Shown piece by piece: positions 12,111 through 62,072 of a DNA stretch of 64,000 nt. This DNA comes from Gammaproteobacteria bacterium. Its GTDB lineage: Bacteria > Pseudomonadota > Gammaproteobacteria > Xanthomonadales > Wenzhouxiangellaceae. The stretch lies in the NCBI GenBank assembly GCA_021772985.1, contig JAJFKX010000005.1, forward strand, positions 1 to 64,000, read 5' to 3'. A program made the position numbers and the translations under genes. Positions within the stretch are counted from its first letter, which is position 1, and each line of letters starts with the position of its first letter. Below the pieces are notes generated by a model that was not told where the DNA came from, ran no database searches, and saw only the letters and a list, made by a program, of their open reading frames with translations.

Positions 12111-12136
12111 GCATTAACCGTTAATTGGAGAACGTT

Positions 12137-30331: not shown

Positions 30332-30769
30332 TTATTCAGAGGCCTGATAGTCGGTGTAGGACTTTTCCTCACGCAGCTGTGAGCCAAGTATTTGGTTAAT
30401 TGAATGTTTGATCGCCGCACGCCGATCATTGGTTATATAAACCGACCGGGCCAATTGGATAAAATTATCACCGAAGTTATTACCGGCCTCATATTCGCGC
30501 AGTTTATCTTCAATCTCCCATAGTTGGGCATTGACAGCTTGTAATTCTTCGCTCAGACGTGCTACCTCCGATGCCAGTGAGGTGTGGTGCACACCTGTGG
30601 CGAACCATAGTTCATTGAGCAATTGTAATTCATGGTTCACATACTCAAGCTGGTCCGGATTGGTTATCCGCTCCGACTTCAGCTTGAGTATGCTGATTTT
30701 ATCAAGTAGCTCTCCCGGTGATACCGGGACGCTGAGTTGACCTATAGATGACGGCTCAGAATCAGTCAC
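30332..30769 (-). CDS. DUF6165-like protein
   Basis: This protein has 145 residues from a GTG start that overlaps the last 8 bases of the OmpA-family gene. It begins VTDSEPSSIGQLSVPV, then SPGELLDKISILKLKSERI, which I recall as the hallmark of the DUF6165 family. The rest is predicted alpha-helical and coiled (LASEVARLSEELQAVNAQLW, then YITNDRRAAIKHSINQIL). The function is not known; relatives are often found near LPS and glycosyltransferase genes. A longer frame starting at 30991 would lie inside the OmpA-family gene and its extra N-terminus has no family likeness, so it is rejected. Confidence 0.65.
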   Translation of the reverse strand: MTDSEPSSIGQLSVPVSPGELLDKISILKLKSERITNPDQLEYVNHELQLLNELWFATGVHHTSLASEVARLSEELQAVNAQLWEIEDKLREYEAGNNFGDNFIQLARSVYITNDRRAAIKHSINQILGSQLREEKSYTDYQASE

Positions 30770-33104
30770 CAACCCAGACCGAAACTGTAGCTGTGTCGGT
30801 ATTACCGAATGAATCTGTAATACGGTAAACAAATTCATCATTTCCAAAGAACTGGAATTCCGGTCCGTAACTGATAGTACCGTCTGCATTGATGCTGATG
30901 GTGCCGTTCGATGGTTGCTGCACGATACCATCCAAGTTAATCGGGTCTCCATCAGGATCACTATCATTAGCCAATACATCGAATACACCAAGCGTGTTCA
31001 TATCGATCATGAACACATCATCGACAGCAATCGGTGGGGAACCAGCGGTAACATCCACACTCACCTGGGCAGTTGCTTGATTACCCGCTGTATCTTCTAT
31101 GCTATAGCTGAATGTATCAGCACCTGAGAAACCGGCATTGGCGGTGTATGTTACCTGGCCACCACTGATAACCGCAGTTCCGTTGGCCGGCTGGCCGACA
31201 TTGACCACGCTGAGCGCATCACCTTCAGGATCACTATCATTGGCCAGTACGTTAATATTAATACTCAGACCAGCGTTAGCCGAGGCAGTATCGTTGACTG
31301 CAATTGGCGGTAAGTTCTCAGGCGCAACCGTTATCGTCACGTTGGCGCTCTGCTGGCCGCCGAACCCGTCATCCACGGTGTAAATGAAAGTATCTGTACC
31401 AGTGAAGTCTGCGTTCGGTGTATAAGTCACTTGATCACCCGCAATACCAACTGTACCGTTCGATGGAGTGCTAACACTGATAATCTGCAAGCCATCACCA
31501 TCTGCATCCGAATCATTGCTGAGTACATTCAGCAAATTATTGGTGCTGTCTTCATCAACGTTAAACATATCGTCTTGCAGGCTTGGCTGCTGATTATCAA
31601 ACACCACATCCCCTTCAACGATCTGGGTGGTGGTTTCCTGGGTACGGTAAACATCCACCTCACGCTTGTGCCGCACTGGTGTACGCAGTGCTCTGCGAAT
31701 CCACGGTGCTTCAACCGGCACTTCCACCTGACGCCATTCCAATACAGGCTCGCTTGGGCCAATGGCCGGACGCCGTACTTCGGTCTCGGTGACAAATTCG
31801 ATTTCCACCCGGCGATTCAAACGACGGGTTACCTCTGTTTCGTTGGAGTAACGAGGCTGAGATTCACCTCGCCAATCGATTTCAAGCTGATCTGCAGACA
31901 ACCCTCTGGATAATATGTAATCACGTACTTCGGTCACGCGGTTCTGTGACAACGTCATGTTGTATTCATCAGTGCCCAGGTTGCATGTGTGGCCGGTCAG
32001 TTTAATCGCTCCAACCAAACGTGCTTCCTGAATTCGGTCTAATAAATCATCCAAAATACCCTGTGCTTCCGGCAATAATACATATTCATCCAGATCGAAG
32101 TTGGTTTCATTGGAAACATCCACCTGATTCATGAATACGCTGCCTTCCCTTTCGCTGGGCGAAGCAGAAACGGCTGGGGTTACCTCGAACTGTTGCGATT
32201 CATAGGCACGTACAGGGCGGTGTGCTTCACCAAAGTTGAAGATATAGTAAAGACCACCACGAATATCATTGCGATCAAGTTCAAGCTCACCTGATTTATG
32301 TGCCCAGGCACCACGTAGTGACAGCATGTGTCCAGTACGTCCAAAAACCTTGTCCAACCTTATAGACGCGGTGAACTGGTCAGCATCACCATTGCCATCT
32401 TCATAATCAGCTCCCAGTGTTAAGCGAACCTGCCGATCGAAAAAATGTGTACCGCCACGGATACCAACACCCCATTCATAGACTTCTTCAAAAACCTGAA
32501 CAGTAGTGTTAAGGGTGTCGGTTCGGGTAAAACCACGACCGTTTTGTATCCCGTTCACCAAAATGTCATTGCTGCTGAAGGTAGTATTTACCAGCAATTC
32601 GTCGGTTAGACCAGCCATTCCATAGAGAGACATAAAGGCATTTTCTTTTTCAATACCACCACCAAAAGTAAGTTTACGGTGATCAGAAATTTCTGCTTGA
32701 TCTACAGCCACAAAAACTTTTGCAACCGTGCCATCGCCGTAAATGGGATTGCCATCTCCATCTTCGCCAATCTGCGAGCCGTTCATCAGCCAGTGAAAAT
32801 TCAATTTCAAACCGCCAGCACCCTCTACGCCAACCCAGCCTTCACCAAGCAATGCCGAATTATAATCTTCGGTAAGTACCGCAGTAATTTCACCGACCAC
32901 ATCAAACTCAGTATCCAAACCAATACCGACACTGAATCTTGAGCCAGTGTATTGCAGATTGACATTGTCACCGCCACCACTTACCGCCAGATTGTCGGCT
33001 GATTGATCCTGTGCCAGCACTGCTGCGCTCCCTAGCACAGCAGCACAGGCTGCAAAACTCAATGTCAGCGCAGACTGACGAATATTATAAATAATGCGTT
33101 GCAT
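30762..33104 (-). CDS. outer-membrane beta-barrel protein with OmpA-like domain and three cadherin-like repeats
   Basis: This protein of 780 residues starts at an ATG preceded by GAGAGG. A signal peptide (SFAACAAVLGSAAVLA) leads into a roughly 280-residue barrel-like region. An OmpA C-terminal domain follows at about 360-450, with LTGHTCNLGTDEYNMTLSQNR and VTRRLNRRVEIEF, which binds peptidoglycan. The C-terminus holds three repeats of about 90 residues, each with V-L-x-N-D-S-D and D-T-F-x-Y segments (SNDSDADGDG, ANDSDPEGDA, ANDSDPDGDP), which look like calcium-binding cadherin or bacterial Ig domains. The OmpA domain is thus internal rather than terminal. The protein may link outer membrane, peptidoglycan and cell surface. 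Confidence 0.85.
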   Translation of the reverse strand: MQRIIYNIRQSALTLSFAACAAVLGSAAVLAQDQSADNLAVSGGGDNVNLQYTGSRFSVGIGLDTEFDVVGEITAVLTEDYNSALLGEGWVGVEGAGGLKLNFHWLMNGSQIGEDGDGNPIYGDGTVAKVFVAVDQAEISDHRKLTFGGGIEKENAFMSLYGMAGLTDELLVNTTFSSNDILVNGIQNGRGFTRTDTLNTTVQVFEEVYEWGVGIRGGTHFFDRQVRLTLGADYEDGNGDADQFTASIRLDKVFGRTGHMLSLRGAWAHKSGELELDRNDIRGGLYYIFNFGEAHRPVRAYESQQFEVTPAVSASPSEREGSVFMNQVDVSNETNFDLDEYVLLPEAQGILDDLLDRIQEARLVGAIKLTGHTCNLGTDEYNMTLSQNRVTEVRDYILSRGLSADQLEIDWRGESQPRYSNETEVTRRLNRRVEIEFVTETEVRRPAIGPSEPVLEWRQVEVPVEAPWIRRALRTPVRHKREVDVYRTQETTTQIVEGDVVFDNQQPSLQDDMFNVDEDSTNNLLNVLSNDSDADGDGLQIISVSTPSNGTVGIAGDQVTYTPNADFTGTDTFIYTVDDGFGGQQSANVTITVAPENLPPIAVNDTASANAGLSININVLANDSDPEGDALSVVNVGQPANGTAVISGGQVTYTANAGFSGADTFSYSIEDTAGNQATAQVSVDVTAGSPPIAVDDVFMIDMNTLGVFDVLANDSDPDGDPINLDGIVQQPSNGTISINADGTISYGPEFQFFGNDEFVYRITDSFGNTDTATVSVWVGD

Positions 33105-33220
33105 GATGCCTCTCAAACCCCTGCTAATGTAGATTTAACGTAATTTTTAGATTATATCGACTATTTGGTGAAACAACACGCTAAATCTATGCTTTTTTTA
33201 TGCATTTTTAACGCTGACAC

Positions 33221-47979: not shown

Positions 47980-48056
<77 letters not shown>

Positions 48057-48241: not shown

Positions 48242-48496
48242 TCAGCGCCGCGTTAGCCAGCGAACAATACCAAGCACACTGATTGCCAGCCAAAAGCTTT
48301 CGATAATAAATGAGGCCAGATTGAAGGTGAAAAACAATGACAACAGAATCAAAGCCGCGCCAATCAGGTTGATCAAAGAATAACCCAGACTTTGAGAACT
48401 AATGCGCTCCAGCTGAATACCGAGATATGCCAGCACAATCATAGATACACCGGCCATACCTGCCAGGTCATGCCAGGCAAAGTTGAATTCAGTCAT
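48242..48496 (-). CDS. small membrane protein, CBU_0592-like
   Basis: This 84-residue protein has three hydrophobic helices and the segments GMAGVSMIVLAYLGIQL and SLINLIGAALILLSLFFTFN, like the CBU_0592 group of small membrane proteins with unknown function. Its ATG overlaps the TGA of the ten-heme cytochrome gene (ATGA), making it the last gene of the electron-transfer operon by coupling. It may help assembly of the complex, but that is inferred only from position. Confidence 0.7.
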   Translation of the reverse strand: MTEFNFAWHDLAGMAGVSMIVLAYLGIQLERISSQSLGYSLINLIGAALILLSLFFTFNLASFIIESFWLAISVLGIVRWLTRR

Positions 48497-50505
48497 TCAT
48501 CGCCGTCGTCCGCCTCGATATCCTGCAGTTCTTCAACTATCAGGCTTGGCGGAGAGGCCTGTTCGACTTGCATCGTCTGCCAATGATAACTGTGACAATC
48601 TGAACAGGATTGTTCTACCGCACCATCCCGGTGACAGCTGTCACACTGAGCTTTTTCAATGCTGTGATGGTCGATGCTGGCGAAGGCTTCTTCATCACCA
48701 ACATCGGTTAATGCATGACAGCTTGCACACGTTTCACCTGCTACCAGGTGTGTTGTATGAGAAAAGCGCGTCCGGCGGATATGTTCAACAGCCGGCCAGG
48801 CAACTTTCGGTTCAACATCGTTTTCATTAACCAGATGGCACTTGCTGCACTGAAAACCCAAACGGTCGTCATACCATTGCTCATCATGTGCAGCCAGATC
48901 TGAAAATAATTTCATCAGTGGGTCGGCATGCAACTGCGGCACATATGATAAAGCCATGTATGACGCTTTGGCCTGTAAATACCACCCGGGGTTAGTGCGA
49001 ACCTCATCTTTGCTTTTTTCAATCCCATCACGCATAGCCCGCCATTGATCACGGCTTGGGCAGACTTCAGCCGATAGTTCTCCATCGGCCTGTTCGGCAA
49101 ACCAGCCGCTACTCAATAGGCGGCGCACATCCACCGGGATGGCACCGATCAATTGAGCCAATTGATCGTTATTGACCTGGCGGGCCTCACTGCCTGATGA
49201 AAAACGTTCCAGGGCATCTTCTGCTGCAATATCTGCAACCAGTGACCGCACCGATTCCGACAATGCAATAACAGCTTCCAATATTTCCGGTGGTGCATCA
49301 TCCAAAGCGTTCATTGCCGTATTGCTTTTGGCCAATATTGTCATCGCGGAAACTGCCTGTTCATCAGTTTCCAACAAACGCCGCATCAGCACCGGCATAT
49401 TACTGACCCGTTTGAACTGAGTGGTTCGACAATTCGGCCAATAACCTATATCCACCTGCTCCGCATTGATATTGGGCATTGCAAATACTGTGGTCGGCCC
49501 GATCTTATCGATCAGCTTGGTGGTGATATCCTTTTCCAGATGACAAGCTGAACACATCCTGTCAAACCCAGCCAGCTCCAAATCTGTACCGGCGGTCAGC
49601 TGATGACAATCAGTACATTGTCTTGGCGCAAATTCGATCAGCGCTTTTTTCTCAAAATGCTGCTGCTGATGCCGGCGGTGATCAAACACTATTTGTGGCC
49701 TGAACTGCGGTAAATCGGTAAACACCGGATGCCCATCCTGGAAAGATTTAAATTGCTTAACATGACAAGTCTGGCATTGATCATCAGACAGATTACTGGC
49801 GTGACCATCGCTGTCATGAATCTGATGACAAGCAGCACAGCTCAATGCGGATATGCTTGATTCCAATGGGGCTGGCTGATCTGTCAATCGACGTGAAATA
49901 TCAGCCAAAACTTGTGGCGCAGCATTGTGTGCCTGCTCCGGGTGTTCAGTAATGTTATGACAGCTCACACAAGCACCAACTGACTGGTGGTGATCTTCCT
50001 GGAAGCCTTCAATGCCCGCAAGTAATAACGTGGAAAATTCGTTGACAAGGTTGGCATGGCAGGTTTCACATTGCTCAATCATGGCATGCCGGTGATCTGT
50101 CGGACCAGGTGAAATTAGCCAGGTAAGCCATTTGCCCGAGCTTAATAACCCGAACAATCCAATGGTTATTATCAACAACAGCAGCACCCATTTCCGGCGC
50201 CTGCGGCGCTCGCTCAAAACCGGTGTGCAGGGCGGTAATACTTCACAGCAACGCCCATCGGCACCAGGTCCTTGGACGCAGGGCCCACCATCCAGTTCGG
50301 ACAGAGCACAATGCCAGCTACCATTTTTCGACACCGGTTCACACAACCGACGCGGCAACCTGTCCGTCTGGTTATAAGGGCAACGCCCCCGGCCATCCGG
50401 CCCATCAGCACACGGTGCCCCCTCTGCACTTGCACCGCATCGCCATTTATTGGTTACCCGGTCATACTGGCTTTTATCGTGGCCTGTTGGTTGTAATTGT
50501 TTCAG
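48493..50505 (-). CDS. membrane-anchored ten-heme cytochrome c with Cys-rich cytoplasmic N-terminus
   Basis: This protein of 670 residues, read from a CTG, overlaps the previous stop as CTGA, with GGAG 8 bases before it. The first standard start codon is a TTG 49 codons later. I prefer the CTG because it restores two copies of the pattern W-x-C-x8-G-x-P-C-x2-G-P-x3-G-x-C: WRCGASAEGAPCADGPDGRG and WHCALSELDGGPCVQGPGAD. A basic stretch and one membrane helix follow at about 105-133. The outer part has ten CXXCH heme motifs, six between about 146 and 322 and four between about 553 and 638, separated by a helical insert without hemes. It likely carries electrons between the membrane cytochrome b and periplasmic partners. 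Confidence 0.8.
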   Translation of the reverse strand: MKQLQPTGHDKSQYDRVTNKWRCGASAEGAPCADGPDGRGRCPYNQTDRLPRRLCEPVSKNGSWHCALSELDGGPCVQGPGADGRCCEVLPPCTPVLSERRRRRKWVLLLLIITIGLFGLLSSGKWLTWLISPGPTDHRHAMIEQCETCHANLVNEFSTLLLAGIEGFQEDHHQSVGACVSCHNITEHPEQAHNAAPQVLADISRRLTDQPAPLESSISALSCAACHQIHDSDGHASNLSDDQCQTCHVKQFKSFQDGHPVFTDLPQFRPQIVFDHRRHQQQHFEKKALIEFAPRQCTDCHQLTAGTDLELAGFDRMCSACHLEKDITTKLIDKIGPTTVFAMPNINAEQVDIGYWPNCRTTQFKRVSNMPVLMRRLLETDEQAVSAMTILAKSNTAMNALDDAPPEILEAVIALSESVRSLVADIAAEDALERFSSGSEARQVNNDQLAQLIGAIPVDVRRLLSSGWFAEQADGELSAEVCPSRDQWRAMRDGIEKSKDEVRTNPGWYLQAKASYMALSYVPQLHADPLMKLFSDLAAHDEQWYDDRLGFQCSKCHLVNENDVEPKVAWPAVEHIRRTRFSHTTHLVAGETCASCHALTDVGDEEAFASIDHHSIEKAQCDSCHRDGAVEQSCSDCHSYHWQTMQVEQASPPSLIVEELQDIEADDGDE

Positions 50506-51341
50506 AAGCCCAGCTCCAGATGATAAGCATAATTAACAATCACATGCAGTACGACCAACACCAGTAACGATATGCTGAAAGCGACATGCACATAGGTCCA
50601 GACACGCAGTAAGAACTGCAGCGAATATTGCCTGTCCAGGCGATGTTTATAGTCAATCAGCTGACGCAGTTGTTCCGCTTTTTCGTCAGCCGTTTTATCA
50701 ATGTATCGGCTCAGAGTATCCAATGAATTGATTAACTTCCTGGCCTGGTTAGCAGAATTGAAGCAATGCGCAGCAAACTCCCGGGGCTTAAACAAATAAT
50801 GTCGTATCTGCTGGGTATAGAAATCCGTTAGTGGCTGACTGCCCTGTTCTTTAGCCAGACGCGCAATTAAATGATCAGCTTTTCTCAGTAACCCAGCTCT
50901 TATTCTTGGGATGCGTTCCAATTGCACACGGCCTTCACTTCTGGTGATCCGTGGTGGCAATGCAATGCTCAACAACAAGCCAAAAATACCACTGGCAAAA
51001 ATGATCAGCATGAATAACCACAATATGAAATTCAGCTTACCTGCAGGTGGCTGCCAGCCGGAATGCAATACAAATACAACTATTGCAAGCCAACCCAACC
51101 AGGTATGCATACGCCGCCAGTACCAGGCACGCCCGACTGGTAACATGGATATTTTTTTGCGTACATTGTAAAGCACCAGCAATAACACCAGGCCAAATAG
51201 TGACCACCCTGTCCACTCAGAAACCTGGTAAAAGCGCGTATCAGATATCCGCCAGACAGTTATCAGACCAGCAATCACCAGCGCTAAAATCAGCGTGGTA
51301 GACAGGCTGCGTTTGAAATAATGGGTTAACGGTCCAGCCAT
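50502..51341 (-). CDS. membrane cytochrome b-like protein with two predicted b hemes
   Basis: This 279-residue protein has five membrane helices, near residues 13-32, 42-60, 79-98, 103-125 and 247-272, with a helical soluble segment between the fourth and fifth. H79 and H93 lie 14 apart in the third helix, and H252 and H266 lie 14 apart in the last, the spacing expected for two b hemes held between two helices. The likely role is moving electrons across the inner membrane, perhaps with quinone. The start overlaps the end of the ferredoxin-fusion gene by 16 bases, and its stop overlaps the CTG of the ten-heme cytochrome. Confidence 0.78.
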   Translation of the reverse strand: MAGPLTHYFKRSLSTTLILALVIAGLITVWRISDTRFYQVSEWTGWSLFGLVLLLVLYNVRKKISMLPVGRAWYWRRMHTWLGWLAIVVFVLHSGWQPPAGKLNFILWLFMLIIFASGIFGLLLSIALPPRITRSEGRVQLERIPRIRAGLLRKADHLIARLAKEQGSQPLTDFYTQQIRHYLFKPREFAAHCFNSANQARKLINSLDTLSRYIDKTADEKAEQLRQLIDYKHRLDRQYSLQFLLRVWTYVHVAFSISLLVLVVLHVIVNYAYHLELGF

Positions 51342-53083
51342 TGCCGCAACGCTTTAGGATCTGAGGTATCGATACGCGTCAGTGCATCATGCGGGCAGGC
51401 TCGCGCGCATGCCGGGCCACCCAATTGATCCACGCATAAATCACACTTGGTGGCTTTCTTGATCGGTTGGTTGGTTTCCTCATTCATCAATAAACGGCCT
51501 TGCTGGTCGCTAACCGTTACCAGACGAATATTGTCATAGGGACAGGATCGTGCACAGTTTCCACAGCCGATACAAGCGGTATCATTAATGGTAATGACAC
51601 GGGTTCCTTCTTTTCTCACGATTGCACCGGTCGGACAATCGACAGTGCATACCGGATCACGGCATTGCATGCAGGCATTGGTAAACTGCAAGTTGGCATA
51701 TTCTGTGCCATGCCGGATAAATCTTGGATTGTTGTCATGTGCGGTAGCGCAGGCCCGCACACAATCATCACAGCCCACACAGCGATCCATATCTATCAGC
51801 ATGGTAGCTGTGCCGTTGATGATGTGTTTATCCAATAAGGTTTCCAGCAGCGCCTGATCACGGTGCTCAAACTCCTCCTGCTCAAAGGCGGGGGCAACCT
51901 GTTCCAGTAAATCCCGGCTGACCAGACCTTTGAGTTGCAATATCGGCAATATATGACTAATCACGATATGCGTAGGTATTCGCAACAAATCCACATAACC
52001 CATTGCCTTGATGGTATGCGCCATAATCAATGGGCGCTGTGGGTTTTTGTGATGTTCCAGCACAGTATGCAAGCCATACATCTGGTTTTCAGTGAGCACG
52101 CCTATGGTCCGTTCGGCACTGCCATAGCTTTCCATCACGCGCACAAAACCACCACGAATCAACAGCACACCATCCAGGTAACTACCCTGGGCCATGATGA
52201 TTTCTTCAGCGCTGTTGACCCGATTCGCAGAACTTATCTTGCCGGACTTACGATACCAATGGGTATCACCCAGCTGTTCAAAACTTGCGTGCTCAGCAAC
52301 TGCTAAAATCTGTTCCGGCGGTAAATGCCGTAAAATTTTATTCTGAGTAAAAAAAGGCAGCATATTGCGCTGCGCCAGTAGCCGATCAACCCAAATTCGA
52401 AAACCGGCATCCCATTTACGCAAATCGCGTAATCCCTGCCAGCGCAATTCATAAATAACTGCATCACTTTCAGCTACAATCATCGCGGCCCGGGGCGCCC
52501 TGGTCAAAGCACTGATTTCCCCAAAAAAAGTTCCCGATTCCACGACTTCGGAATGGGCTGCTTCAATCAACTCTGGTAAGTTTTCGACCATGTGTATGAG
52601 ACGACCATCCGCCTCGCGGGTATTAATTTCTTGATGCTTACCGTATCGGCTCGCATCGCGCCGCTCCGCTATCGCAGAATTGGACCATAACTGGCGCAAT
52701 GCTGAATAAACGCTGGTAATTTTATCGCGCTTCTTGTCACTGACATCAAAATGCTCCGGCAGTGACAGCATTAAACGTAATTCACCGCTCAGCAGCAGGA
52801 AGCAACTGGAACCGTAGGCGCCAACATGGGTAATGATGTCACCACGCTGGTAATGGGTTATTCGGCCGTCGTTAAGCAATAGGTCGTGAAAATTTCTGCC
52901 GGTAGGAAAATTTTCTGCTGCCAACAGCGAAAATGGCTCGTGACGCAGGATCGCCTGTACCATCTCCGGGGTAAACTGCTGCTTATCGCCGAATGGCTGA
53001 TCCCACCTGGTCGGAGGTGAGATATGCAGCATGGCTGCACTTTCAGCGCGATCCTGCAGTTCGGTGTGTGATTCGTTTGCCAT
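51326..53083 (-). CDS. cyclic-nucleotide-binding/4Fe-4S ferredoxin fusion protein
   Basis: The 585-residue protein joins regulatory and electron-transfer parts. The first cNMP-binding domain spans about 60-220. Its phosphate-binding cassette is intact, with G188-E189 in FFGEISALTRAPRAAM and R198. A second domain at about 240-375 keeps the fold but its cassette (MYGLHTVLEHHKNP) lacks the Gly-Glu pair. The C-terminus carries sixteen cysteines for four 4Fe-4S clusters, starting at C435, C471, C504 and C547, arranged as in HybA/DmsB-type electron-transfer subunits. No signal peptide or Tat motif is visible, so it should be cytoplasmic. It could pass electrons to the cytochrome b when bound to a nucleotide. 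Confidence 0.88.
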   Translation of the reverse strand: MANESHTELQDRAESAAMLHISPPTRWDQPFGDKQQFTPEMVQAILRHEPFSLLAAENFPTGRNFHDLLLNDGRITHYQRGDIITHVGAYGSSCFLLLSGELRLMLSLPEHFDVSDKKRDKITSVYSALRQLWSNSAIAERRDASRYGKHQEINTREADGRLIHMVENLPELIEAAHSEVVESGTFFGEISALTRAPRAAMIVAESDAVIYELRWQGLRDLRKWDAGFRIWVDRLLAQRNMLPFFTQNKILRHLPPEQILAVAEHASFEQLGDTHWYRKSGKISSANRVNSAEEIIMAQGSYLDGVLLIRGGFVRVMESYGSAERTIGVLTENQMYGLHTVLEHHKNPQRPLIMAHTIKAMGYVDLLRIPTHIVISHILPILQLKGLVSRDLLEQVAPAFEQEEFEHRDQALLETLLDKHIINGTATMLIDMDRCVGCDDCVRACATAHDNNPRFIRHGTEYANLQFTNACMQCRDPVCTVDCPTGAIVRKEGTRVITINDTACIGCGNCARSCPYDNIRLVTVSDQQGRLLMNEETNQPIKKATKCDLCVDQLGGPACARACPHDALTRIDTSDPKALRQWLDR

Positions 53084-53119
53084 ATTTAGGGTTAATGCTG
53101 TTCAGGTCTGCCTGGTCAA

Positions 53120-54085
53120 CTATTCCAACGGATCGCCTTTGAATTCACCGTATGTAGCGATTAACTCGTCCAAACCCGATATATCTGCATCACTGTTTAA
53201 TGTATCTGCCGCAGTTGATAATGCACTGATAACCTGCTCGGCCATTGCAGTGTCCATCGGCGCAGCAAACTCAACATCCGCCACTGCCGAGTTTAATGCT
53301 TGTACCTTGCCATCTGATGTATTGTCGGCAATTTCTGCCAACTCGCCTTTGGCTCGATTCATCCGTGCAACCATGGCAACAGCGTAATCTCCATCTGCTG
53401 TCTGCACAGTCGTCAATGCATTGAGGCCGGCTTCCAGTTCTGCAACCAGGCCAAAAACCGCCATCAGCCGCTTACGCTCCGGACTGGCTTCATTATTTTC
53501 AGGTGTGCTGAAGGTGTTGTGCCGTATCTCCCCTTGACTCCAGGTAACCAGATTGAAGTCACTGCCGGCTTTATGCCCACCGGTGTTAACCAGTTCTTCC
53601 TGAGCAACAATATGACAACCAAAGCAATTCCTGGCAAACGCATATACATTGCCTGGCCTGATCATACCGGCCGCCTCTGCTTCCGCCCAGAGTGTAACCT
53701 GCTGTTCCTCGGTTTTGTCCTCTTCGCTATGCACGTCGACCCAATCCCGTCCAGCGCCATGGCAAGACTCACAGGAAACACCTGCAATCACTTCCGGGCT
53801 GCTCCCATCAGCCTGCAAGGTCAAGTGACAGCTTTGACACAACTCTGCTTCAACCACGTCGTCAATTCCCAACTTGTCAGCAATATCTGCGCCATCATCG
53901 GAATCAGGCATGCTTTCGTAAGTGATCGAGTGATGGGTTTCTTCCCAGATACCGGTTTCAACATCGTGGCATTCCGCACATTGCTCAGGACCGACCACTT
54001 TATGCGGATCTGGTGATGCCAGACTGACCTGCAAGCACATGCAAACCACCACTAATATTCCTAACTTAATCAAGTTTCGGCACAT
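53120..54085 (-). CDS. tetraheme cytochrome c (c554-like)
   Basis: This protein of 321 residues starts at an ATG with AGGAG 8 bases before it; a longer frame running into the reductase gene is rejected. The signal peptide is LGILVVVCMCLQVSLA. Four CXXCH motifs are at C36, C83, C105 and C154, with CAECHDVETGIWEETHHS typical of the c554 group. The C-terminal 150 residues have no hemes and are predicted helical. It should be a periplasmic electron carrier of the operon. Confidence 0.87.
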   Translation of the reverse strand: MCRNLIKLGILVVVCMCLQVSLASPDPHKVVGPEQCAECHDVETGIWEETHHSITYESMPDSDDGADIADKLGIDDVVEAELCQSCHLTLQADGSSPEVIAGVSCESCHGAGRDWVDVHSEEDKTEEQQVTLWAEAEAAGMIRPGNVYAFARNCFGCHIVAQEELVNTGGHKAGSDFNLVTWSQGEIRHNTFSTPENNEASPERKRLMAVFGLVAELEAGLNALTTVQTADGDYAVAMVARMNRAKGELAEIADNTSDGKVQALNSAVADVEFAAPMDTAMAEQVISALSTAADTLNSDADISGLDELIATYGEFKGDPLE

Positions 54086-54107
54086 TCCAAACACTCCTAA
54101 AAAAACA

Positions 54108-55406
54108 TCAAGCATCAATGATCAAATTGGAACCAGGTACGCCCACACATGCCAGGCAACTGTTCGCTGTCAGGTCAAACTGCGGGTCTCGATCCGGATA
54201 AACCACTTGTCCTTCAATAATAGCAATTTCACAGGTTCCACATTCACCACAACGGCAACCAGCATCCAGGGCCAGATTATTATCTTCAGCAAATTCCAGC
54301 AAGCTACCCGACGCAGCTGTCCACTGAAGTGTCTGTCCACTGCGTTTAAACTGAACAGAAAATTGCTCACCAGTCTGCTCGCTGTGTTCGACCTTAGGTA
54401 TTGCGCGTTTTATCGATGCCGGCCCAAATGCTTCGGAATAAACCATATTCGCAGGCACACCCCATTGTTCCAAACCTGTGGAAATGCTTTGCATCATCGG
54501 TACCGGTCCGCATATATAGAACTCGGGTTGCTGGTATTCCGGGATTTTGTCGAATACCTCATCCAGATTCAGTGATTCACGTATCCAGTCCACTGAAACA
54601 TAGCCTTTGCGATGATAATGTTGCCCCTGCATACATTGTCCTGTTGGCTTTGAGAAAGCCAGCCTCAAGTGGATGTTCGCTGTTTCGGCTGCAGCTGTCT
54701 GCAACTCCTGCAAAGCCATCACCTGATGCTGATGATCAACGCCATAGAAAAACCATACATCTCGCCGACTGCCCTGACGTATCAAATACTGGAACATGCA
54801 CAACATCGGTGTCACACCAACACCACCGGCAATCAGCACCACCGGATTGGTCGATTGCTGCTGCAGGTAAAACTGACCGCTCGGTGCTTTGACATCCACC
54901 AAATCATATTCTTGAATCTGCTCATGCCAAAACCCGGATACCAGTCCGCATGGTGCATTAGGCTTGTCAGGCGGCGGCGGCAAACGCTTAACCGATACCC
55001 GGTAATGTGATTGCTCCCTGCCACTGGGCGCTTCCGACAGCGAATAGCAGCGCACTACCGGTTTGTTGTTTGGCCCGGCCCGCAAACTGAAGGTTAGATG
55101 CTGACCCGGTTGGAAATCAGGAATCGGCAAGCCATCATGGGGTTTTAAATAGAATGAACAAACGGCATCACATTCATCAACTTTTCTAGCGACAATAAAC
55201 TTGCGATATCCGGTCCAACTCAATTGCTGTTGACGCTGATGCGTTTGCAGCATATTACCCTGGTACTTCAAGTGCTCAAGTTTTAGGTGGTGTTCAAGTA
55301 ATACAAATCGCTGACGGTGGAACATTGCCGAGACAGCCAACACCGCCTGCAATAAGGCCAATGCCAGAATCACCACACCAAGCCATTGAATAGCTGTCAG
55401 CATCAT
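54108..55406 (-). CDS. membrane-anchored FAD/NAD(P) reductase with C-terminal 2Fe-2S ferredoxin domain
   Basis: This 432-residue protein has one N-terminal membrane helix (GVVILALALLQAVLAVSAMF). A ferredoxin-NADP reductase-like unit follows, with the flavin motif R119-C-Y-S122 in VVRCYSLSEAP and the nucleotide motif AGGVGVTPML at 193-202. The C-terminal plant-type 2Fe-2S domain has C384, C389, C392 and C420. This is the layout of oxygenase reductases and NO-detoxifying hybrids. Here it lies among cytochromes and could feed NAD(P)H electrons to them. Neighbours are 22 and 6 bases away. Confidence 0.9.
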   Translation of the reverse strand: MMLTAIQWLGVVILALALLQAVLAVSAMFHRQRFVLLEHHLKLEHLKYQGNMLQTHQRQQQLSWTGYRKFIVARKVDECDAVCSFYLKPHDGLPIPDFQPGQHLTFSLRAGPNNKPVVRCYSLSEAPSGREQSHYRVSVKRLPPPPDKPNAPCGLVSGFWHEQIQEYDLVDVKAPSGQFYLQQQSTNPVVLIAGGVGVTPMLCMFQYLIRQGSRRDVWFFYGVDHQHQVMALQELQTAAAETANIHLRLAFSKPTGQCMQGQHYHRKGYVSVDWIRESLNLDEVFDKIPEYQQPEFYICGPVPMMQSISTGLEQWGVPANMVYSEAFGPASIKRAIPKVEHSEQTGEQFSVQFKRSGQTLQWTAASGSLLEFAEDNNLALDAGCRCGECGTCEIAIIEGQVVYPDRDPQFDLTANSCLACVGVPGSNLIIDA

Positions 55407-55412
55407 GGTTAT

Positions 55413-56867
55413 TTAAAAAGCAAAATTGAATTCGGTGCGCATACCGACATCTGTACCGCGAGCATCGCCATCAGTGAGGAACATGTCTGTTTGAAACAAC
55501 CAGCGACGCCCCAGTGATTGTTGAAAGCGCACACCTAAGCCACCAGCAAATGCATTCTCACCTTCAAAATCCTGACGCACACCCAATTCGACAATCAGGT
55601 TTTGACGTTCTTCATCAAAAAACCATTGGTATCCAACTGCGCCACCCACTGCCTGCTGACCGGCATTTGACAGCGGCGCAATGAAACGACCCAAGCCGGG
55701 AGCAGCGAACAAAATCCCTGTTCTTCCCAATGGTCCACCAACTGTTTCACCACGTGATGCCGAGGTGTAATCCCCAATTGCAGCAAACCCATTGAAATAG
55801 ATGACATTATGCGTACCTAACGGCGCCCTCGATATTTCTGCAAACAACAATACACCGTCATCGACCAAATCACTTTGCTGGTCCAATGCCAGCGATCCAT
55901 TCACACGAAATGTGGTATTCCAGAAACCGAACCGCTGGGTGCTGCCGTAACCGGCATACAGGCCATCACCACCTGTTTCACTGTCAATATAAACCAGGTC
56001 AAATTCAATGGTGCTGCGCCTGGTATCGGTTTCACCAAACAAACCGAACAGGTTGGCATCATTATCTTGAAGATTATCGTTACGATTAACATCGTTCCAC
56101 CCGAACAGGAAGGTCAAACGAGTGGAGGGCGATGAATCAAACAATTGCAGGTTATTACGGACAATGCCAATCGCATCGATGGTGTCGTTAAGCAACATAC
56201 CATCCTGAAAACTCAATGGTTGACGGCCGATGGAAAAACCATAATCAAGGTTATTTTCCAAGCGTTCGTCATCGTTTCTACGCTGCAGTTTGGGAAATAA
56301 CTCACCAAAATCACCCTCGAACCAGAGTTGCTGAATATCCGCATTGAATTCATCCTGGAACCCACCGCCGGCATCGGGTTGGAACTGATAGTTGGTGAAT
56401 CTGCCTTCGTCATGTAAGGGGGTAAAGCCAATCACAAGACGCTCGGTAGCTGTAAGCTGCAAATTGAACGCAACATCAGCACGAACAGTGATTTCAGTCA
56501 AATCTGCACCATCTTCAGACTCAATCACACTCAGACCGGTACGTATCCCACCAAGCATATACAAAGCCGGCTGCCAAACAGCACCAGTGGGTAACTCAAA
56601 GCCCGGATGTAATTTGCCCAAACCAAGTAAATCCGGCCCCAGTTCCAGTGGTGGCCCGGTGCGTATCAGCGAACAGGGATTAGCAATTGGGGTGCTGGAG
56701 TGAGCTCCACTGGAAGATTGTTGCTTGTCACAATCACCTGGTTGGAAAGGCTCCGGCAATCGCACCACCTCGTCTGACAAAGCCGACTCCGGCGAAACAG
56801 CAAAAACCGGACTAAGTAAACACCCCAGCCACAAACAAAATATGATTCGGATACTTGTTATTTTCAT
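55413..56867 (-). CDS. outer-membrane beta-barrel protein of the electron-transfer operon
   Basis: This protein of 484 residues starts at an ATG (MKITSIRIIFCLWLG) after a longer TTG frame is discarded. The signal peptide ends near SPVFA. The mature protein is rich in alternating strands with aromatic girdles and ends in Phe (MRTEFNFAF), as outer-membrane barrels do. It lacks the CXXC of MtrB/PioB barrels. I do not recognise an exact family; alginate-export or porin-like barrels are possible. Its place between two cytochrome genes suggests a path across the outer membrane. Confidence 0.75.
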   Translation of the reverse strand: MKITSIRIIFCLWLGCLLSPVFAVSPESALSDEVVRLPEPFQPGDCDKQQSSSGAHSSTPIANPCSLIRTGPPLELGPDLLGLGKLHPGFELPTGAVWQPALYMLGGIRTGLSVIESEDGADLTEITVRADVAFNLQLTATERLVIGFTPLHDEGRFTNYQFQPDAGGGFQDEFNADIQQLWFEGDFGELFPKLQRRNDDERLENNLDYGFSIGRQPLSFQDGMLLNDTIDAIGIVRNNLQLFDSSPSTRLTFLFGWNDVNRNDNLQDNDANLFGLFGETDTRRSTIEFDLVYIDSETGGDGLYAGYGSTQRFGFWNTTFRVNGSLALDQQSDLVDDGVLLFAEISRAPLGTHNVIYFNGFAAIGDYTSASRGETVGGPLGRTGILFAAPGLGRFIAPLSNAGQQAVGGAVGYQWFFDEERQNLIVELGVRQDFEGENAFAGGLGVRFQQSLGRRWLFQTDMFLTDGDARGTDVGMRTEFNFAF

Positions 56868-56908
56868 TATTTTGTCAAGCAATCAACCGCAGGTGACGGT
56901 GATCACAA

Positions 56909-58795
56909 TTATAGTTTTCTGCAAACATTGTTTTGGAATTTACACTGACCATCATCAAACTCATCCGCAGTGCATTGCAAAATATCACCGGCGGTGGATA
57001 AATCCTGCTCAATCCCACCGGAATCGGATAATACCAGCTGCCTTGACCATACCACGTCAGCGCCGTCAACAACCCGATTGGCAACTTCTTTAGGGCTCAT
57101 CTCGTAGTCAAATCCAGCCGCAGCAATTTCGGCGATCAAGTTCACCGGGACCATTTGCACAATTAATGCCACATCCGCAGTCAACGGCCATTGGACATCC
57201 TCAACATCAATGGAATAACGTGCTTTACGGCTGCTGCCTGCCTGAATAACCTGACGGTGTTTGCGAGCACCGGCTGGACGCCCGTATAAGGTGGTTGGCC
57301 GAAGCTCCGGACGGATAAATGGCCGGGCGCTGACCGATTTATTCACCGCCAACACCTGCTCACGCTCGCCACCACGGGCCAGGCGGGTAATAAATTTTGA
57401 TTGCAGGTTGAATAAGTCTTTGTCCAGCGGCACATCGCCGTTGGCAACATACAATGAGTGGGTATCGCGCAAATCACCATTGGGATCACGATCACCGGAA
57501 ACATAAATCTCACGGCCACTCTGGTCACGCACCACTATTTCCAGAAAAACCAATCGCTCGGCATCAAAACCGGTTGGGACATTGTGTCCATCGGTACCAC
57601 TGGCCACATCTATGTTCAACTTCAAACTATCACGGCGCCGCTGGCTGCTGATGTCGGTAATCAGAAACCCGTTACGCAGCACTTCCAATCGTTGCTCGCG
57701 CGCCCAATCCAGCAATTCACACTGCTCGACAATCAGCTTACGCGCAGACTTGCGATGGCTGATGGTTTTCCAGGACTCGGGAAACTCAGTATCATCAGCC
57801 TGGCTTTTTTCAAATTCGTTTTCTCCCCAACCGGCGTTGTAATCAAATTTGAGCCAGTCACGCAGCGTCTTGGAACGCAGATTACGGGGAGATTCAAGCT
57901 GATGAGGAAAAATACCTGGATGCACAATGGAATAATCAGGTCCGGCGAAATAATGATTGGTCACTTTTCTTGGCGGGGTTTCCGCCCGGCCGATCAACGC
58001 CGCTGGACCTTGCTCATAGCCTGCATCTTTACCCTGCACCTCGCCCATGTGGCAGTCCTGACAAGATACTCCGCGGGCAGCGGCTGGCGAGGTTTTATAA
58101 TCACTGAAAGCCTCTTCCAATCTGAAGCCATTAACCAACAATACATCGTGGCAACTACCGCAAAAACGTGATGAGGTTAATTCAAAAAACTGTTCAACTT
58201 CAGCATGCACTTTTTTGCCACGTGAATTCTCGAAATCAGTAGACAGGTTTCTATAGGTGGAAGTATCCGCCAGCACTTCTTCCAGCCCGGCATTTCCAGT
58301 CGGGCCTTTTACCGGCGCAACTATGCTGCCCTCATCCAGTGCCAGACGCCCGGAAATCTTACCGAAAGCCTGAGATACACGGTGACAGGCAATGCAGGTC
58401 ACGCCTTCCCGGGATGCCGGGTCACGATCCAGGTTGGTCAGTGCCAATGGCTCTTTTATATCAGTGCCTACCGGGGTGTGACAGCGCAGGCAAAAGTCAC
58501 CGTTGGTACCACTGGTTTTAAGATTGATAGTGGTCTGCATAGCCATATACACCGGGCTCAGCTGTGCATAGGCATGTTGCGATACAGACCATTCCTTATA
58601 TTGCTTGGGGTGGCAGGCCGCACATTTTGCTGCCGGTGGGTAGCGATCTTCCAGGAAGATCTGTTCATGTGCAGCAGTGTTTTCTGCTTGCGCCGCAACT
58701 GAACCGGGCAGCAATAAAGATACACAGGCCAATATGTACAGCACAGCAGCAACACGGCTGCCGGTTACCGGTTCTTGCGTCTGGCTCATAAACAT
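56909..58795 (-). CDS. five-heme cytochrome c (c554-like)
   Basis: This 628-residue protein has a signal peptide (VLYILACVSLLLPGSVAA). Five CXXCH motifs at C58, C102, C134, C212 and C245 lie in the first 250 residues, with AAKCAACHPKQYKEWSVSQH and GVTCIACHRV typical of the c554/multiheme family. The C-terminal half has no hemes, seems beta-rich, and ends in a Cys-containing tail. ATG is used, with a second ATG two codons later. It is the first gene of the operon and could be the terminal reductase or oxidase. Confidence 0.87.
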   Translation of the reverse strand: MFMSQTQEPVTGSRVAAVLYILACVSLLLPGSVAAQAENTAAHEQIFLEDRYPPAAKCAACHPKQYKEWSVSQHAYAQLSPVYMAMQTTINLKTSGTNGDFCLRCHTPVGTDIKEPLALTNLDRDPASREGVTCIACHRVSQAFGKISGRLALDEGSIVAPVKGPTGNAGLEEVLADTSTYRNLSTDFENSRGKKVHAEVEQFFELTSSRFCGSCHDVLLVNGFRLEEAFSDYKTSPAAARGVSCQDCHMGEVQGKDAGYEQGPAALIGRAETPPRKVTNHYFAGPDYSIVHPGIFPHQLESPRNLRSKTLRDWLKFDYNAGWGENEFEKSQADDTEFPESWKTISHRKSARKLIVEQCELLDWAREQRLEVLRNGFLITDISSQRRRDSLKLNIDVASGTDGHNVPTGFDAERLVFLEIVVRDQSGREIYVSGDRDPNGDLRDTHSLYVANGDVPLDKDLFNLQSKFITRLARGGEREQVLAVNKSVSARPFIRPELRPTTLYGRPAGARKHRQVIQAGSSRKARYSIDVEDVQWPLTADVALIVQMVPVNLIAEIAAAGFDYEMSPKEVANRVVDGADVVWSRQLVLSDSGGIEQDLSTAGDILQCTADEFDDGQCKFQNNVCRKL

Positions 58796-59103: not shown

Positions 59104-60537
59104 CTAAAAACTGGCAACACACAACGCGATCAGCGCGTTGGCAAAAATACCCAACAGCAACTGTGCCAATCCATTGATGGTTAATACGAATCTAAAATCA
59201 GCCGGAGCGGTAACTTTTACTTCAGTTTCCGGCTCATCAAAATACATCAGCTTGACCACCCTCAGGTAATAGAACGAGCCGATCACAGAAAATACCACCG
59301 CCAATACTGCCAACCACAGCAGGCCAACATCCAATATCGCCTGGATAACCAGCCACTTGGCGAAGAAACCGACAAACACCGGAATACCTGCCATTGAAAA
59401 CATCAGCATCAACATCACCGCCGCCAGCAACGGGCTCCGCTGGTTCAGACCTTTGTAGTCATCCAGGTTTTCGGCTTCAACACCGGCGCGCGACAACATG
59501 ATCAATACAGCAAATGCACCGGTGGACATAATGGCGTAAGCAATCGAATAAAACATTGCCGCGCTGTAACCTTGCGCTGTGCCGGATAATATACCCAGCA
59601 GCATAAAACCCATATGCGAGATGGTGGAATATGCCAGCATCCGCTTCAGATTGGTCTGTGCTATCGCCACCAGGTTTCCGATAATAATCGACAACGCGGC
59701 CAACACCGTCAGCATTCCCATCCATTGGTCTTGCAGTGGACTTAAACCGTTATCCAGTAATCGGATCGCCATGGCAAATGCAGCCAGTTTGGGAACCGAA
59801 CCAATCAACATGGTGACTGCCGCAGGCGCACCATGATAAACATCTGGCACCCACATATGAAATGGCACTGCACCCAACTTAAAGGCAACACCGATAACCA
59901 CAAACACCAAACCAAATATCAGGGTAATATTATTACTTGCCAGCGCTGCCATTTCAGAAATACCAGACAGACTCAATGTACCGGTTACACCATAAATCAT
60001 GGATAAGCCATAGAGCAGCAAACCAGAGGCCAAGGAACCCAGAATAAAATACTTCATGGCTGCTTCAGAACCGCGACGGTTATCCCGGTCGAGCGCCACT
60101 AATGCATAAGAACTCAAAGAGATTAATTCCAACCCCAAATATACAGTCAACAGGCTGGCCGCCGAAATCAATACCATAGCGCCGAGCAGCAGAAACAGGC
60201 TCAACACATAGTATTCACCCTGGAATAGCTTGAACATGCGCAAATAATGTTTCGCATAAATAAATATTGCGCCAAGTACAACAAAACAAAATAACTTAAG
60301 TACGTCAGCCATACTGTCGCGCACAAAAGTTTCGTTAAACGCGTATTGCACCGTTGCAGCATCAGTCACTTGCCAGCGCATTACCATAATGCCGGCAAAC
60401 ACTAAGGTCATAACCGAAATAAAGCTCACCATGCCCCGCCGGTTATCAGGCAGGTACAAATCGATCAGCATAATCAGACAGGCCATGCCCAGAATAAATA
60501 ATTCCGGAAGCGCTATAAATAAATCATTCGCAGTCAT
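59104..60537 (-). CDS. nuoN: NADH-quinone oxidoreductase subunit N
   Basis: This antiporter-like membrane subunit of complex I has 477 residues from the ATG. It has about 14 helices with SLYxLVAxD-like LELISLSSYALVALDRDN, AFKLGAVPFHMWVPDVYHGAP and LKRMLAYSTISHMGFMLLG, which hold the proton-pumping Lys and His residues. The ATG lies 2 bases after the nuoM stop; the frame also opens at a TTG overlapping that stop. It is the usual last gene of the nuo operon. Confidence 0.98.
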   Translation of the reverse strand: MTANDLFIALPELFILGMACLIMLIDLYLPDNRRGMVSFISVMTLVFAGIMVMRWQVTDAATVQYAFNETFVRDSMADVLKLFCFVVLGAIFIYAKHYLRMFKLFQGEYYVLSLFLLLGAMVLISAASLLTVYLGLELISLSSYALVALDRDNRRGSEAAMKYFILGSLASGLLLYGLSMIYGVTGTLSLSGISEMAALASNNITLIFGLVFVVIGVAFKLGAVPFHMWVPDVYHGAPAAVTMLIGSVPKLAAFAMAIRLLDNGLSPLQDQWMGMLTVLAALSIIIGNLVAIAQTNLKRMLAYSTISHMGFMLLGILSGTAQGYSAAMFYSIAYAIMSTGAFAVLIMLSRAGVEAENLDDYKGLNQRSPLLAAVMLMLMFSMAGIPVFVGFFAKWLVIQAILDVGLLWLAVLAVVFSVIGSFYYLRVVKLMYFDEPETEVKVTAPADFRFVLTINGLAQLLLGIFANALIALCVASF

Positions 60538-60539
60538 GA

Positions 60540-62072
60540 TCAAGGCACCTTGGTCTGCATAACATGGTTGAGCAATTGATCAACCGTGGGTTGCATCAAC
60601 TCGATCAGTGGTGCCGGCCATACACCGAACAACAACACCGCAATCGCCAGCACCGATAAAATCAATGCTTCCCGGACATTGATATCTTCCAGTTGTGCGA
60701 CTTCCTGATTGGCGACGTCACCAAAAAGCACCCGTTTAACCAGGTACAAGCTATAAGCAGCACCCAAAATCAGGGTCAAGCCAGCCAGCGCTGCATACCA
60801 GAAGTTAGCGTGAAAAGCGGATAAAATCACCATAAACTCACCGACAAAACCACTGGTTCCCGGCAAGCCGCTATTGGCCATAAAAAATAACACAACAAAG
60901 GCGGCGAACCATGGCATTTTGTTTGCCACCCCACCGTAAGCGTCAATATCTCGAGAGTGCATTCGATCATATAACACCCCAACGCACAGGAATAATGCCC
61001 CGGAAATAAATCCATGCGAAATCATCTGAATCATCCCGCCGCTAATGCCTAATGCAGCGCCCTGAGCCACTTCAATGGCGGTATCAGAATCTGCAGCGGA
61101 CCGCATAATTGCGAATATCACAAAAAAGCCCAATGTCGCAAACCCCATGTGCGCAATTGAACTGTACGCAATCAGTTTCTTCATATCCTGTTGTGCCAGC
61201 GCCACAAAACCAATATAGACCACTGCAATTAGTGAGCACCCGATCATCAACCAGTCCAGGTAGGCGCTACCATCCGGGGTTATCGGCAGACTGAAACGCA
61301 GGAAACCATATCCTCCGATTTTCAGCATGATAGCTGCCAGAATGACTGACCCACCGGTAGGCGCCTCGACATGCGCATCCGGCAACCAGGTATGTACCGG
61401 CCACATTGGCACTTTAACTGCGAACGCGGTAAAAAATGCCAGAAACAACCATGTTTGAGCAGTCAACGACAGCGGCAATGCATGCCAATCAAGAATGGAA
61501 AAACTGCCGGACTGCAAGTACAGCCAGATCAATCCAACCAACATGAACACCGACCCGAGGAAGGTGTATATAAAAAACTTGATGGTTGCATAAACACGGC
61601 GTTCACCACCCCAAACACCAATCACCAAAAACATTGGAATCAGCATGGCTTCAAAGAAAATATAAAACAGCATGCCATCCAATGCAGCAAAAACACCGAC
61701 CATCAGCCCTTGCAAAATCAGGAATGAAGCCATGTACTGATGCACCCGTTTGGTGATTGAGCTCCAACCGGCAATCACCACAATCACGCCAAAGAAATTG
61801 GTCAACAGGATCAATGGCATGGAAAAACCGTCCACACCCAGGTGATAGAAAATGCTAAACGCCTCAATCCATGGCATCCGCTCGACAAACTGCATCGCAG
61901 CGGTACCGCCATCAAAGCCGGTATACAGTGGAATACTGGATACCAGTGCAGCCACTGTCACCAGCAAAGCCAGTATTCGGGCGACACCCGGACGTTGGTC
62001 ACCTGCAGCCAATACCGCCAGGCCACCCAGAATCGGCAACCAGATTAAAAGTGAAAGTAAGTGCACTGACAT
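60540..62072 (-). CDS. nuoM: NADH-quinone oxidoreductase subunit M
   Basis: This 510-residue membrane subunit of complex I is an antiporter-like proton channel. Conserved parts include YHLGVDGFSMPLILLTN, FEAMLIPMFLVIGVWG (the key Glu), AVKVPMWPVHTWLPDAHVEAP with the pumping Lys, and KKLIAYSSIAHMGF. It follows nuoL after 172 bases, a wide gap for this operon, which contains a 9-base-pair long-range inverted repeat. Confidence 0.98.
   Translation of the reverse strand: MSVHLLSLLIWLPILGGLAVLAAGDQRPGVARILALLVTVAALVSSIPLYTGFDGGTAAMQFVERMPWIEAFSIFYHLGVDGFSMPLILLTNFFGVIVVIAGWSSITKRVHQYMASFLILQGLMVGVFAALDGMLFYIFFEAMLIPMFLVIGVWGGERRVYATIKFFIYTFLGSVFMLVGLIWLYLQSGSFSILDWHALPLSLTAQTWLFLAFFTAFAVKVPMWPVHTWLPDAHVEAPTGGSVILAAIMLKIGGYGFLRFSLPITPDGSAYLDWLMIGCSLIAVVYIGFVALAQQDMKKLIAYSSIAHMGFATLGFFVIFAIMRSAADSDTAIEVAQGAALGISGGMIQMISHGFISGALFLCVGVLYDRMHSRDIDAYGGVANKMPWFAAFVVLFFMANSGLPGTSGFVGEFMVILSAFHANFWYAALAGLTLILGAAYSLYLVKRVLFGDVANQEVAQLEDINVREALILSVLAIAVLLFGVWPAPLIELMQPTVDQLLNHVMQTKVP

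Follow-up and report, generated by a model that had tools for sequence, protein, structure and literature searches.

What could be the common task of three multiheme cytochromes c, an outer-membrane barrel, a flavin reductase, a membrane cytochrome b and a ferredoxin with a cyclic-nucleotide-binding domain, when all of them are predicted from neighbouring genes on one strand? The question is raised by a locus in a 64,000-nucleotide stretch of contig JAJFKX010000005.1 (GCA_021772985.1, Wenzhouxiangellaceae), here called the window, with coordinates given on its forward strand. A first-pass annotation had described the eight genes, designated A to H in table 1, as an electron-transfer operon whose products would span the cell envelope. 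Our results indicate that A–G are a real and widely conserved set, most likely a conduit with a cyclic-nucleotide sensor, and we lean, with some reserve, towards the view that these seven genes encode a trans-envelope conduit for electrons from NAD(P)H that is controlled by cyclic nucleotide. This view is built on gene content, co-occurrence, the counts of heme motifs and histidines, the predicted folds of A and B, the insertion site and the linkage to cyclases.

Table 1. Features of the locus, with their predicted products and the basis of each assignment.
Feature	Position	Strand	Predicted product and basis
A	56909..58795	minus	periplasmic pentaheme cytochrome c, heme domain and Ig-like C-terminal domain; 5 CXXCH
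B	55413..56867	minus	outer-membrane beta-barrel, about 18 strands, paired with A; AlphaFold2 model
C	54108..55406	minus	membrane-anchored FAD/NAD(P)H/[2Fe-2S] reductase; Pfam, conserved motifs
D	53120..54118	minus	periplasmic cytochrome of c554 type with four hemes; start at TTG 54118 or a codon close by
E	51326..53083	minus	cytoplasmic cyclic-nucleotide-binding ferredoxin; PF00027 and Fer4
F	50502..51341	minus	inner-membrane di-heme b cytochrome; four invariant His
G	48493..50505	minus	decaheme cytochrome c, cytoplasmic 2x4-Cys N-terminal domain, one transmembrane helix; start CTG inferred
H	48242..48496	minus	CBU_0592-family membrane protein, native neighbour outside the system; NF047864
nuoN-like gene (complex I)	59104..60543	minus	border of the insertion; PF00361
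tRNA-Met(CAT)	47980..48056	minus	landmark beyond H

Read from 58795 down to 48242, the eight open reading frames (ORFs) are all on the minus strand and translate without internal stops. They are separated by 41 bases (A/B, with B from the ATG at 56867), 6 (B/C), −11 (C/D), 36 (D/E), −16 (E/F), −4 (F/G) and −4 (G/H), where the F/G value supposes that G starts at CTG 50505; from the first ATG, GTG or TTG (TTG 50358) the F/G gap would be 143. The CTG is preferred because the N-terminal stretch that it adds is conserved in relatives, and it overlaps the stop codon of F as CTGA. A CTGA is also seen at the matching place in locus L010, near 12525. The annotated limit of 41 bases therefore holds only with this start, and the overlaps are then four, not three. 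The annotated numbers of CXXCH motifs, five in A, four in D and ten in G (19 in total), are correct, and when each protein was shuffled 2000 times the mean count fell to 0.009, 0.0095 and 0.071 and the maximum to 1, 2 and 2, never more than two.

The operon itself comprises seven genes, not the eight first described. The order nuoN–H–tRNA-Met is found in the relatives G385, of the same genus, and G443 and G513, of the same family (loci L093–L095), and the listing gives no relative of E for G385 or G443. Since relatives without the operon read nuoN–H–tRNA-Met, H (84 residues) is a resident gene and is ruled out as an eighth subunit. In the window A–G sits between nuoN and H, and therefore A–G is most likely an insertion into this locus. 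The distribution of E is sporadic: a match at an E-value of 1e-40 occurs in only three of the 299 genomes of the order (G000, G377 and G441), and E was found in three of the 369 genomes of the class, with its own genome counted in both. The G+C content of the operon, taken in 4-kb windows, shows no difference from that around it, and no relative of E was found among the PLSDB plasmids at 1e-40.

Do the seven genes belong together elsewhere? When 84,980 species genomes were scanned with E sequences aligned from five genomes, at least 584 stretches matched, and at least 475 of them encode an E-like product at an E-value of 1e-3, a threshold that may admit other ferredoxins. The best 80 of these E-like matches, the 80 loci below, were compared with profiles of A–G (up to five genomes each; thresholds of 100 bits, 50 for B). 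In the fetched stretches A is present in 45 loci, B in 47, C in 69, D in 71, E in 80, F in 78 and G in 75; all seven occur together in 41, and many of the loci with fewer are cut by contig ends. Restricted to loci of more than 21 kb, which number 35 and have full flanks, the counts are 35 for each of C, E, F and G, 32 for D, and 27 for A, for B and for the complete set. The numbers of heme motifs are nearly constant: five in 44 of 45 A, four in 68 of 71 D and ten in 62 of 64 G, a further 11 G genes being cut by a contig edge and left outside this count. Tracing 14 of the 35 loci without A in the stretch through the whole genome (with two positive controls) located A elsewhere in nine. Unassigned ORFs of at least 80 residues were clustered over the 80 loci as candidates for further conserved subunits, and these were rejected: five families reach five loci or more (16, 8, 7, 6 and 6), the largest containing cyclases and the others confined to a few loci.

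According to the submitters' titles, the hosts of the 80 loci belong to Pseudomonadota (34), Planctomycetota (22), Verrucomicrobiota (14), Nitrospinota (5) and SAR324 (2), with single relatives of E in Poribacteria, Chloroflexota and Omnitrophota, which makes seven phyla and SAR324; many of these genomes are metagenome-assembled genomes (MAGs), and individual assemblies may be misbinned. The 41 complete loci are distributed over Pseudomonadota, Planctomycetota, Verrucomicrobiota, Nitrospinota and SAR324, and named strains with complete sets include Tistlia consotensis, Hwanghaeella grinnelliae, Ferruginivarius sediminum and Adhaeretor mobilis. Co-occurrence in other genomes, proposed at first pass as the check, thus bears out the set. 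No description of it was found in the open-licence literature of PubMed Central (PMC), which excludes subscription papers and preprints, so that one may exist elsewhere.

The sensor is predicted in E, which matches PF00027 with 64 bits against a cut-off of 27.5, along with several Fer4 models. An intact phosphate-binding cassette is recognised by a Glu and an Arg; in E the cassette residues F187, G188, E189 and R198 are each kept by at least 90% of the 81 sequences compared, and so are 16 Cys, enough for four [4Fe-4S] clusters. The iron-sulfur part resembles subunits of DmsB/HydN type, and 73 of 80 proteins have no hydrophobic segment. A link to cyclic nucleotides is also found in the neighbourhood. 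A phmmer search of the 80 loci with two cluster-adjacent cyclases (PF00211) at an E-value of 1e-10 gave cyclase-like ORFs in 17, part of them checked singly against PF00211 and a weak match in L075 not counted. To obtain an expectation, PF00211 was counted in 65 of the 80 genomes, 16 chosen for a cyclase already seen (E-value 1e-3) and 49 others (1e-5); the remaining 15 loci have no cyclase-like match. From the cyclase count of each genome, its rounded size and the stretch outside A–G, class III cyclase-like genes would be expected near the cluster in 0.98 of these 65 loci, compared with the 17 observed. In planctomycetes the figures are nine of nine loci against 0.04 expected, the cyclase lying head to head with C at a distance of −71 to 174 bases, and for the remaining loci 8 of 56 against 0.94 (L037, L063, L076, L016, whose genome has 88 cyclases, L025, L042, L079 and L083). 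Gating by a nucleotide is a possibility raised by this genomic linkage together with the nucleotide-binding domain.

C matches PF00175, PF00970 and PF00111 with conserved FAD, NAD and Cys motifs, in agreement with a flavin/[2Fe-2S] reductase. A hydrophobic N-terminal segment is present in 63 of 65 relatives, and in 60 of these 63 the basic residues are more numerous after the segment than before it, from which the catalytic part is expected on the cytoplasmic side. F has the four invariant His (n = 76) for the two b-hemes named in the annotation, H79/H93 and H252/H266, each pair 14 residues apart; its only Pfam match is to DUF4405, below threshold, and a PDB profile search at an E-value of 0.1 gave no match. 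D shares PF13435 (54.6 bits, cut-off 20.8) with cytochrome c554 of the Nitrosomonas CycA type and matches the c554 structure 1bvb (E-value 1.4e-14), but reaches only 49.5 bits with the c554 equivalog model NF043010, the cut-off of which is 400; four extra His are invariant in the 50 rows with four motifs. G matches PF14522, and ten extra His are conserved to at least 95% in the 63 rows with ten motifs. Its heme part is preceded by a domain with eight Cys, each present in 92–93% of 75 aligned rows, which is built from two repeats W-x-C-G...C-x2-G-P...G-x-C...C-x-P and followed by a hydrophobic helix. This domain, scanned in three sequences, matched no Pfam family at an E-value of 0.5, and a PDB search at 1 gave no match; ten genomes searched whole have one copy each, at the operon.

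At the outer end, A (628 residues, PF13435) begins with a hydrophobic, signal-like segment. Its AlphaFold2 model, made from 43 sequences with a predicted local distance difference test (pLDDT) score of 84.1, has a single PDB match at an E-value of 0.001, the penta-heme c552 of Thermochromatium tepidum (5ze8; Foldseek 1.2e-9). The two agree over 357 residues (Z 18.5, root mean square deviation 4.0), C-terminal beta domain included, so the overall fold is shared; A differs in its length and in being paired with B. The layout of A, five c-hemes in one domain and then an Ig-like domain, fits the PHC pentahemes, and the fold family, as treated in the relevant part of PMC11976967, is that of ExtKL and c552, the latter without a clear assigned function there. 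With the ExtKL model NF040886 A reaches 36.8 bits (cut-off 250), and by fold and score it is related to ExtKL but distinct from it. Six extra His are conserved to at least 95% (n = 43), five in the heme domain and one in the Ig-like domain. Within the heme parts of A, D and G, the 19 c-heme motifs are thus matched by as many conserved extra His (19); because each c-heme can have a His partner, this parity, though no proof of ligation, points to a wire rather than to a heme enzyme. For B, the model (pLDDT 84.7, the first 60 residues of low confidence) supports the annotated outer-membrane barrel, with about 18 strands counted from the DSSP line, and its fold matches are OprD/Occ, MOMP and AlgE (Z 25–28). 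B has no Pfam family at an E-value of up to 0.05, and its listed fold matches include neither MtrB nor another large porin, an absence that is no proof in itself. In 41 of 44 loci A is the gene immediately preceding B.

Such a barrel also fits an arrangement that we consider rather unlikely: B would be a substrate channel feeding a periplasmic reductase, where a small soluble oxidant, for example an oxyanion, is reduced and no electrons pass the outer membrane, a role discussed for Geobacter ExtI/ExtKL. The porins found as the best folds of B and the pentaheme family of A speak for it, together with the Geobacter phenotype described in part of PMC5877670, where loss of ExtI harms the reduction of selenite and tellurite, not of Fe(III) citrate. 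However, the equal numbers of hemes and extra His in A, D and G leave no open heme site evident, and the distances of A and B correlate with r = 0.97 (561 pairs), as would be expected of partners.

The corresponding correlations for the inner genes are 0.72 (E–F), 0.71 (E–G) and 0.77 (F–G), against 0.32 for A–E; shared ancestry inflates all these values, so that the contrast weighs more than the values themselves, and it suggests two co-varying modules, A–B and E–F–G. The modules also appear in other combinations. Of the 369 genomes of the class, with at most three candidates per genome scored and the own genome included, six have A at an E-value of 1e-60 and three have E. A stretch of 19.5 kb in G028 and one of 7.9 kb in G174 contain A–B without C–G, and their A carries a sixth, N-terminal heme motif, assigned by Pfam to a class I cytochrome c domain (G028 scanned). 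The six-heme A–B pairs are at L118 (234–6020) and L119 (5541–10984), the Pfam class I cytochrome c being in L119, and genes similar to PAP2/vanadium haloperoxidases adjoin the A–B pairs in G028 and G174. In G091 (L117, L120), A–B and two tetraheme genes are followed by one 816-residue protein that unites Pyr_redox, cyclic-nucleotide-binding and Fer4 domains, and this in turn by an F homologue that keeps all four His and by a ten-heme G homologue with an FHA domain; a separate C was not seen in the examined stretch. The fusion ties NAD(P)H flavin chemistry, cyclic nucleotide and ferredoxin into one step. A decaheme protein with LVIVD repeats (about 1300 residues) was found in four of 13 genomes searched (G155, L063, L069 and L076), the last three being three of the four variant-type Verrucomicrobia; the other nine, among them G000 and L081, the fourth variant, lack it. 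Its gene lies beside the cluster in L006 (14621–18505) and L069 (16517–20476), where the C-terminal half of the neighbouring product is barrel-like by eye, and no paper joining LVIVD with multiheme proteins was found in the open-licence PMC literature. The outer module may be exchangeable.

The direction of flow could also be the opposite, with a donor outside the cell or in the periplasm delivering electrons to A/D and on through G, F, E and C to yield NAD(P)H, as in electron-uptake conduits. We consider this improbable. It agrees with the extra N-terminal heme on A of G028 and G174 and with homologous sets in Nitrospinae/Nitrospina MAGs and, without A at a contig end, in a Mariprofundus MAG, since Nitrospina-type and Mariprofundus lineages are known for the oxidation of nitrite and iron; yet the operon has no energy-coupling subunit to drive electrons uphill, and many other hosts are not known as lithotrophs. 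Just as improbable in our estimation is a quinone-coupled module, in which F, E and G would form a quinol oxidase or quinone reductase of the inner membrane, similar in role to CymA/CbcL or Hmc/Qrc, and C would have a purpose of its own. The di-heme b pattern of His in F, the DmsB/HydN-like part of E and the shifting position of C in the gene order are all compatible with such a module, but direct coupling to NAD(P)H is preferred because C is present in all 35 full loci and Pyr_redox is fused to the E homologue in G091. An open-heme enzyme of the nitrite/hydroxylamine type is disfavoured, as the heme motifs equal the conserved extra His, other catalytic sites being possible.

The ext cluster of Geobacter is the nearest described system found; the outer end is alike and the inner-membrane half is of another make. 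In the sections of PMC5877670 that describe it, extHIJKLMNOPQS encodes the porin ExtI, the five-heme ExtKL, the ten-heme ExtN, the 12-heme ExtM, the four-heme ExtS, the cytochrome b ExtP and the Rieske protein ExtO, and a strain with extHIJKL as its sole conduit cluster is reported, in the part of PMC6148476 concerned, to reduce Fe(III) oxide at up to half of the wild-type level. Both clusters place a porin beside a PHC pentaheme, with ten-heme and four-heme proteins and a cytochrome b. Whereas Geobacter, by the same description in PMC5877670, combines a bc-type cytochrome b and its Rieske partner with a 12-heme protein and a rhodanese, A–G has the cyclic-nucleotide ferredoxin and the NAD(P)H reductase, and B is likened to ExtI by gene context. 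No Rieske or bc1-type Pfam match occurs among the eight proteins at an E-value of 0.05 (for E, 14 listed families only).

MtrCAB/PioAB/MtoAB and OmbB-OmaB-OmcB resemble A–G in that an outer-membrane barrel is encoded with a periplasmic multiheme cytochrome. Porins of MtrB/PioB type have 26–28 strands. B appears to differ from them, with about 18 strands in the model and no Pfam match, and A has five hemes, not 10 or 8. A–G has no surface decaheme, and its input looks linked to NAD(P)H, not to CymA/quinol (PMC6344600 for part of these traits of the known systems). The periplasmic decaheme partner of the Mtr/Pio/Mto systems is unmatched, as the partner of B has five hemes and G is anchored by a transmembrane helix and does not adjoin B. 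In the Hmc, Qrc and Dsr complexes of sulfate reducers, an iron-sulfur subunit, a membrane subunit and a multiheme cytochrome act over the inner membrane; A–G has the same layout, but E lacks a hydrophobic export segment and carries cyclic-nucleotide domains, and matches to the QrcA, HmcB and DsrO models are far below cut-off. The Verrucomicrobia cluster of He et al. 2017 (PMC5615132) likewise combines a novel porin with multiheme genes and is set apart, as far as the portion of that paper describing it goes, by the about 18 strands, five hemes and cyclic-nucleotide ferredoxin module found here.

What, then, would the seven proteins do together? The predicted parts and their joint presence in other genomes uphold an envelope-spanning electron-transfer set; the order of transfer, its outward direction, the gating and the delivery through or at B are what we infer. 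NAD(P)H would reduce the FAD and [2Fe-2S] centre of C, anchored in the inner membrane on its cytoplasmic side, and C would pass electrons to the four [4Fe-4S] clusters of E and from there possibly to the cytoplasmic Cys-rich domain of G. The two b-hemes of F would then carry the electrons over the inner membrane to the ten c-hemes of G in the periplasm, and G would reduce D, a shuttle to A, whose five hemes would be docked to the outer-membrane barrel B. By binding to E, cyclic AMP (cAMP) or cyclic GMP (cGMP) would turn electron entry from the cytoplasm on or off. Because no proton pump is encoded, the conduit would be a regulated electron outlet, for redox overflow or as a surface reductase, more than a coupling site. 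The most specific form of this proposal, a cAMP/cGMP-gated wire from NAD(P)H to the surface with exchangeable modules and a new, possibly redox-active 2x4-Cys domain, distributed over several phyla, is put forward tentatively.

Several observations weigh against the proposed conduit. All evidence is computational; the direction of electrons is not fixed by sequence, and cofactor binding by A–G is predicted from motifs. At the outer end, the 18-stranded porin fold predicted for B could be that of a plain solute channel, five of the 14 traced genomes have no A anywhere, and three class genomes (G028, G174 and G091) have A without a close E. Four Verrucomicrobia have only a weak D-like ORF with three hemes on the other strand (43–60 bits, below threshold), a quinone site in F is possible, and G has fewer than eight Cys in its N-terminal domain in 7 of 75 rows, six of them planctomycete rows that lack the domain. 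As regards the sensor, the fetched stretches of 63 of the 80 loci contain no ORF similar to a cyclase at 1e-10, the two cyclases of the organism's own genome are on other contigs, and nine of the 17 cyclase loci come from one planctomycete clade of eleven and therefore represent fewer independent events.

The CRP-type pattern TGTGA-N6-TCACA with up to two mismatches is not enriched (31 in the window, 34.9 expected) and does not occur between nuoN and A; of one-mismatch matches there are two in the operon, one at 56892–56907 in the A/B gap. The FNR-like pattern TTGATN4ATCAA with up to two mismatches occurs 79 times in the whole window against 41.5 in shuffles, about twofold, with none between nuoN and A, and promoter and terminator scans gave chance-level counts. 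Elsewhere in the window, two ORFs of 1016 and 1029 residues (9060–12110 and 12125–15214), mutually unlike and without a significant Pfam match, lie downstream of a gene for a sigma-70-family factor (8406–9056), and 30762–33116 encodes a protein that combines an OmpA domain with repeated Big_9/cadherin-like domains.

The multiheme conduits known to us are controlled by gene expression. Here a predicted nucleotide-sensor domain is part of the redox chain, and nearby cyclase-like genes are far more frequent than expected by chance. The hosts are planctomycetes, verrucomicrobia, alphaproteobacteria and Nitrospina-type bacteria, groups in which, in our view, extracellular electron transfer is little studied, and there A–G would provide a regulated outlet for electrons.

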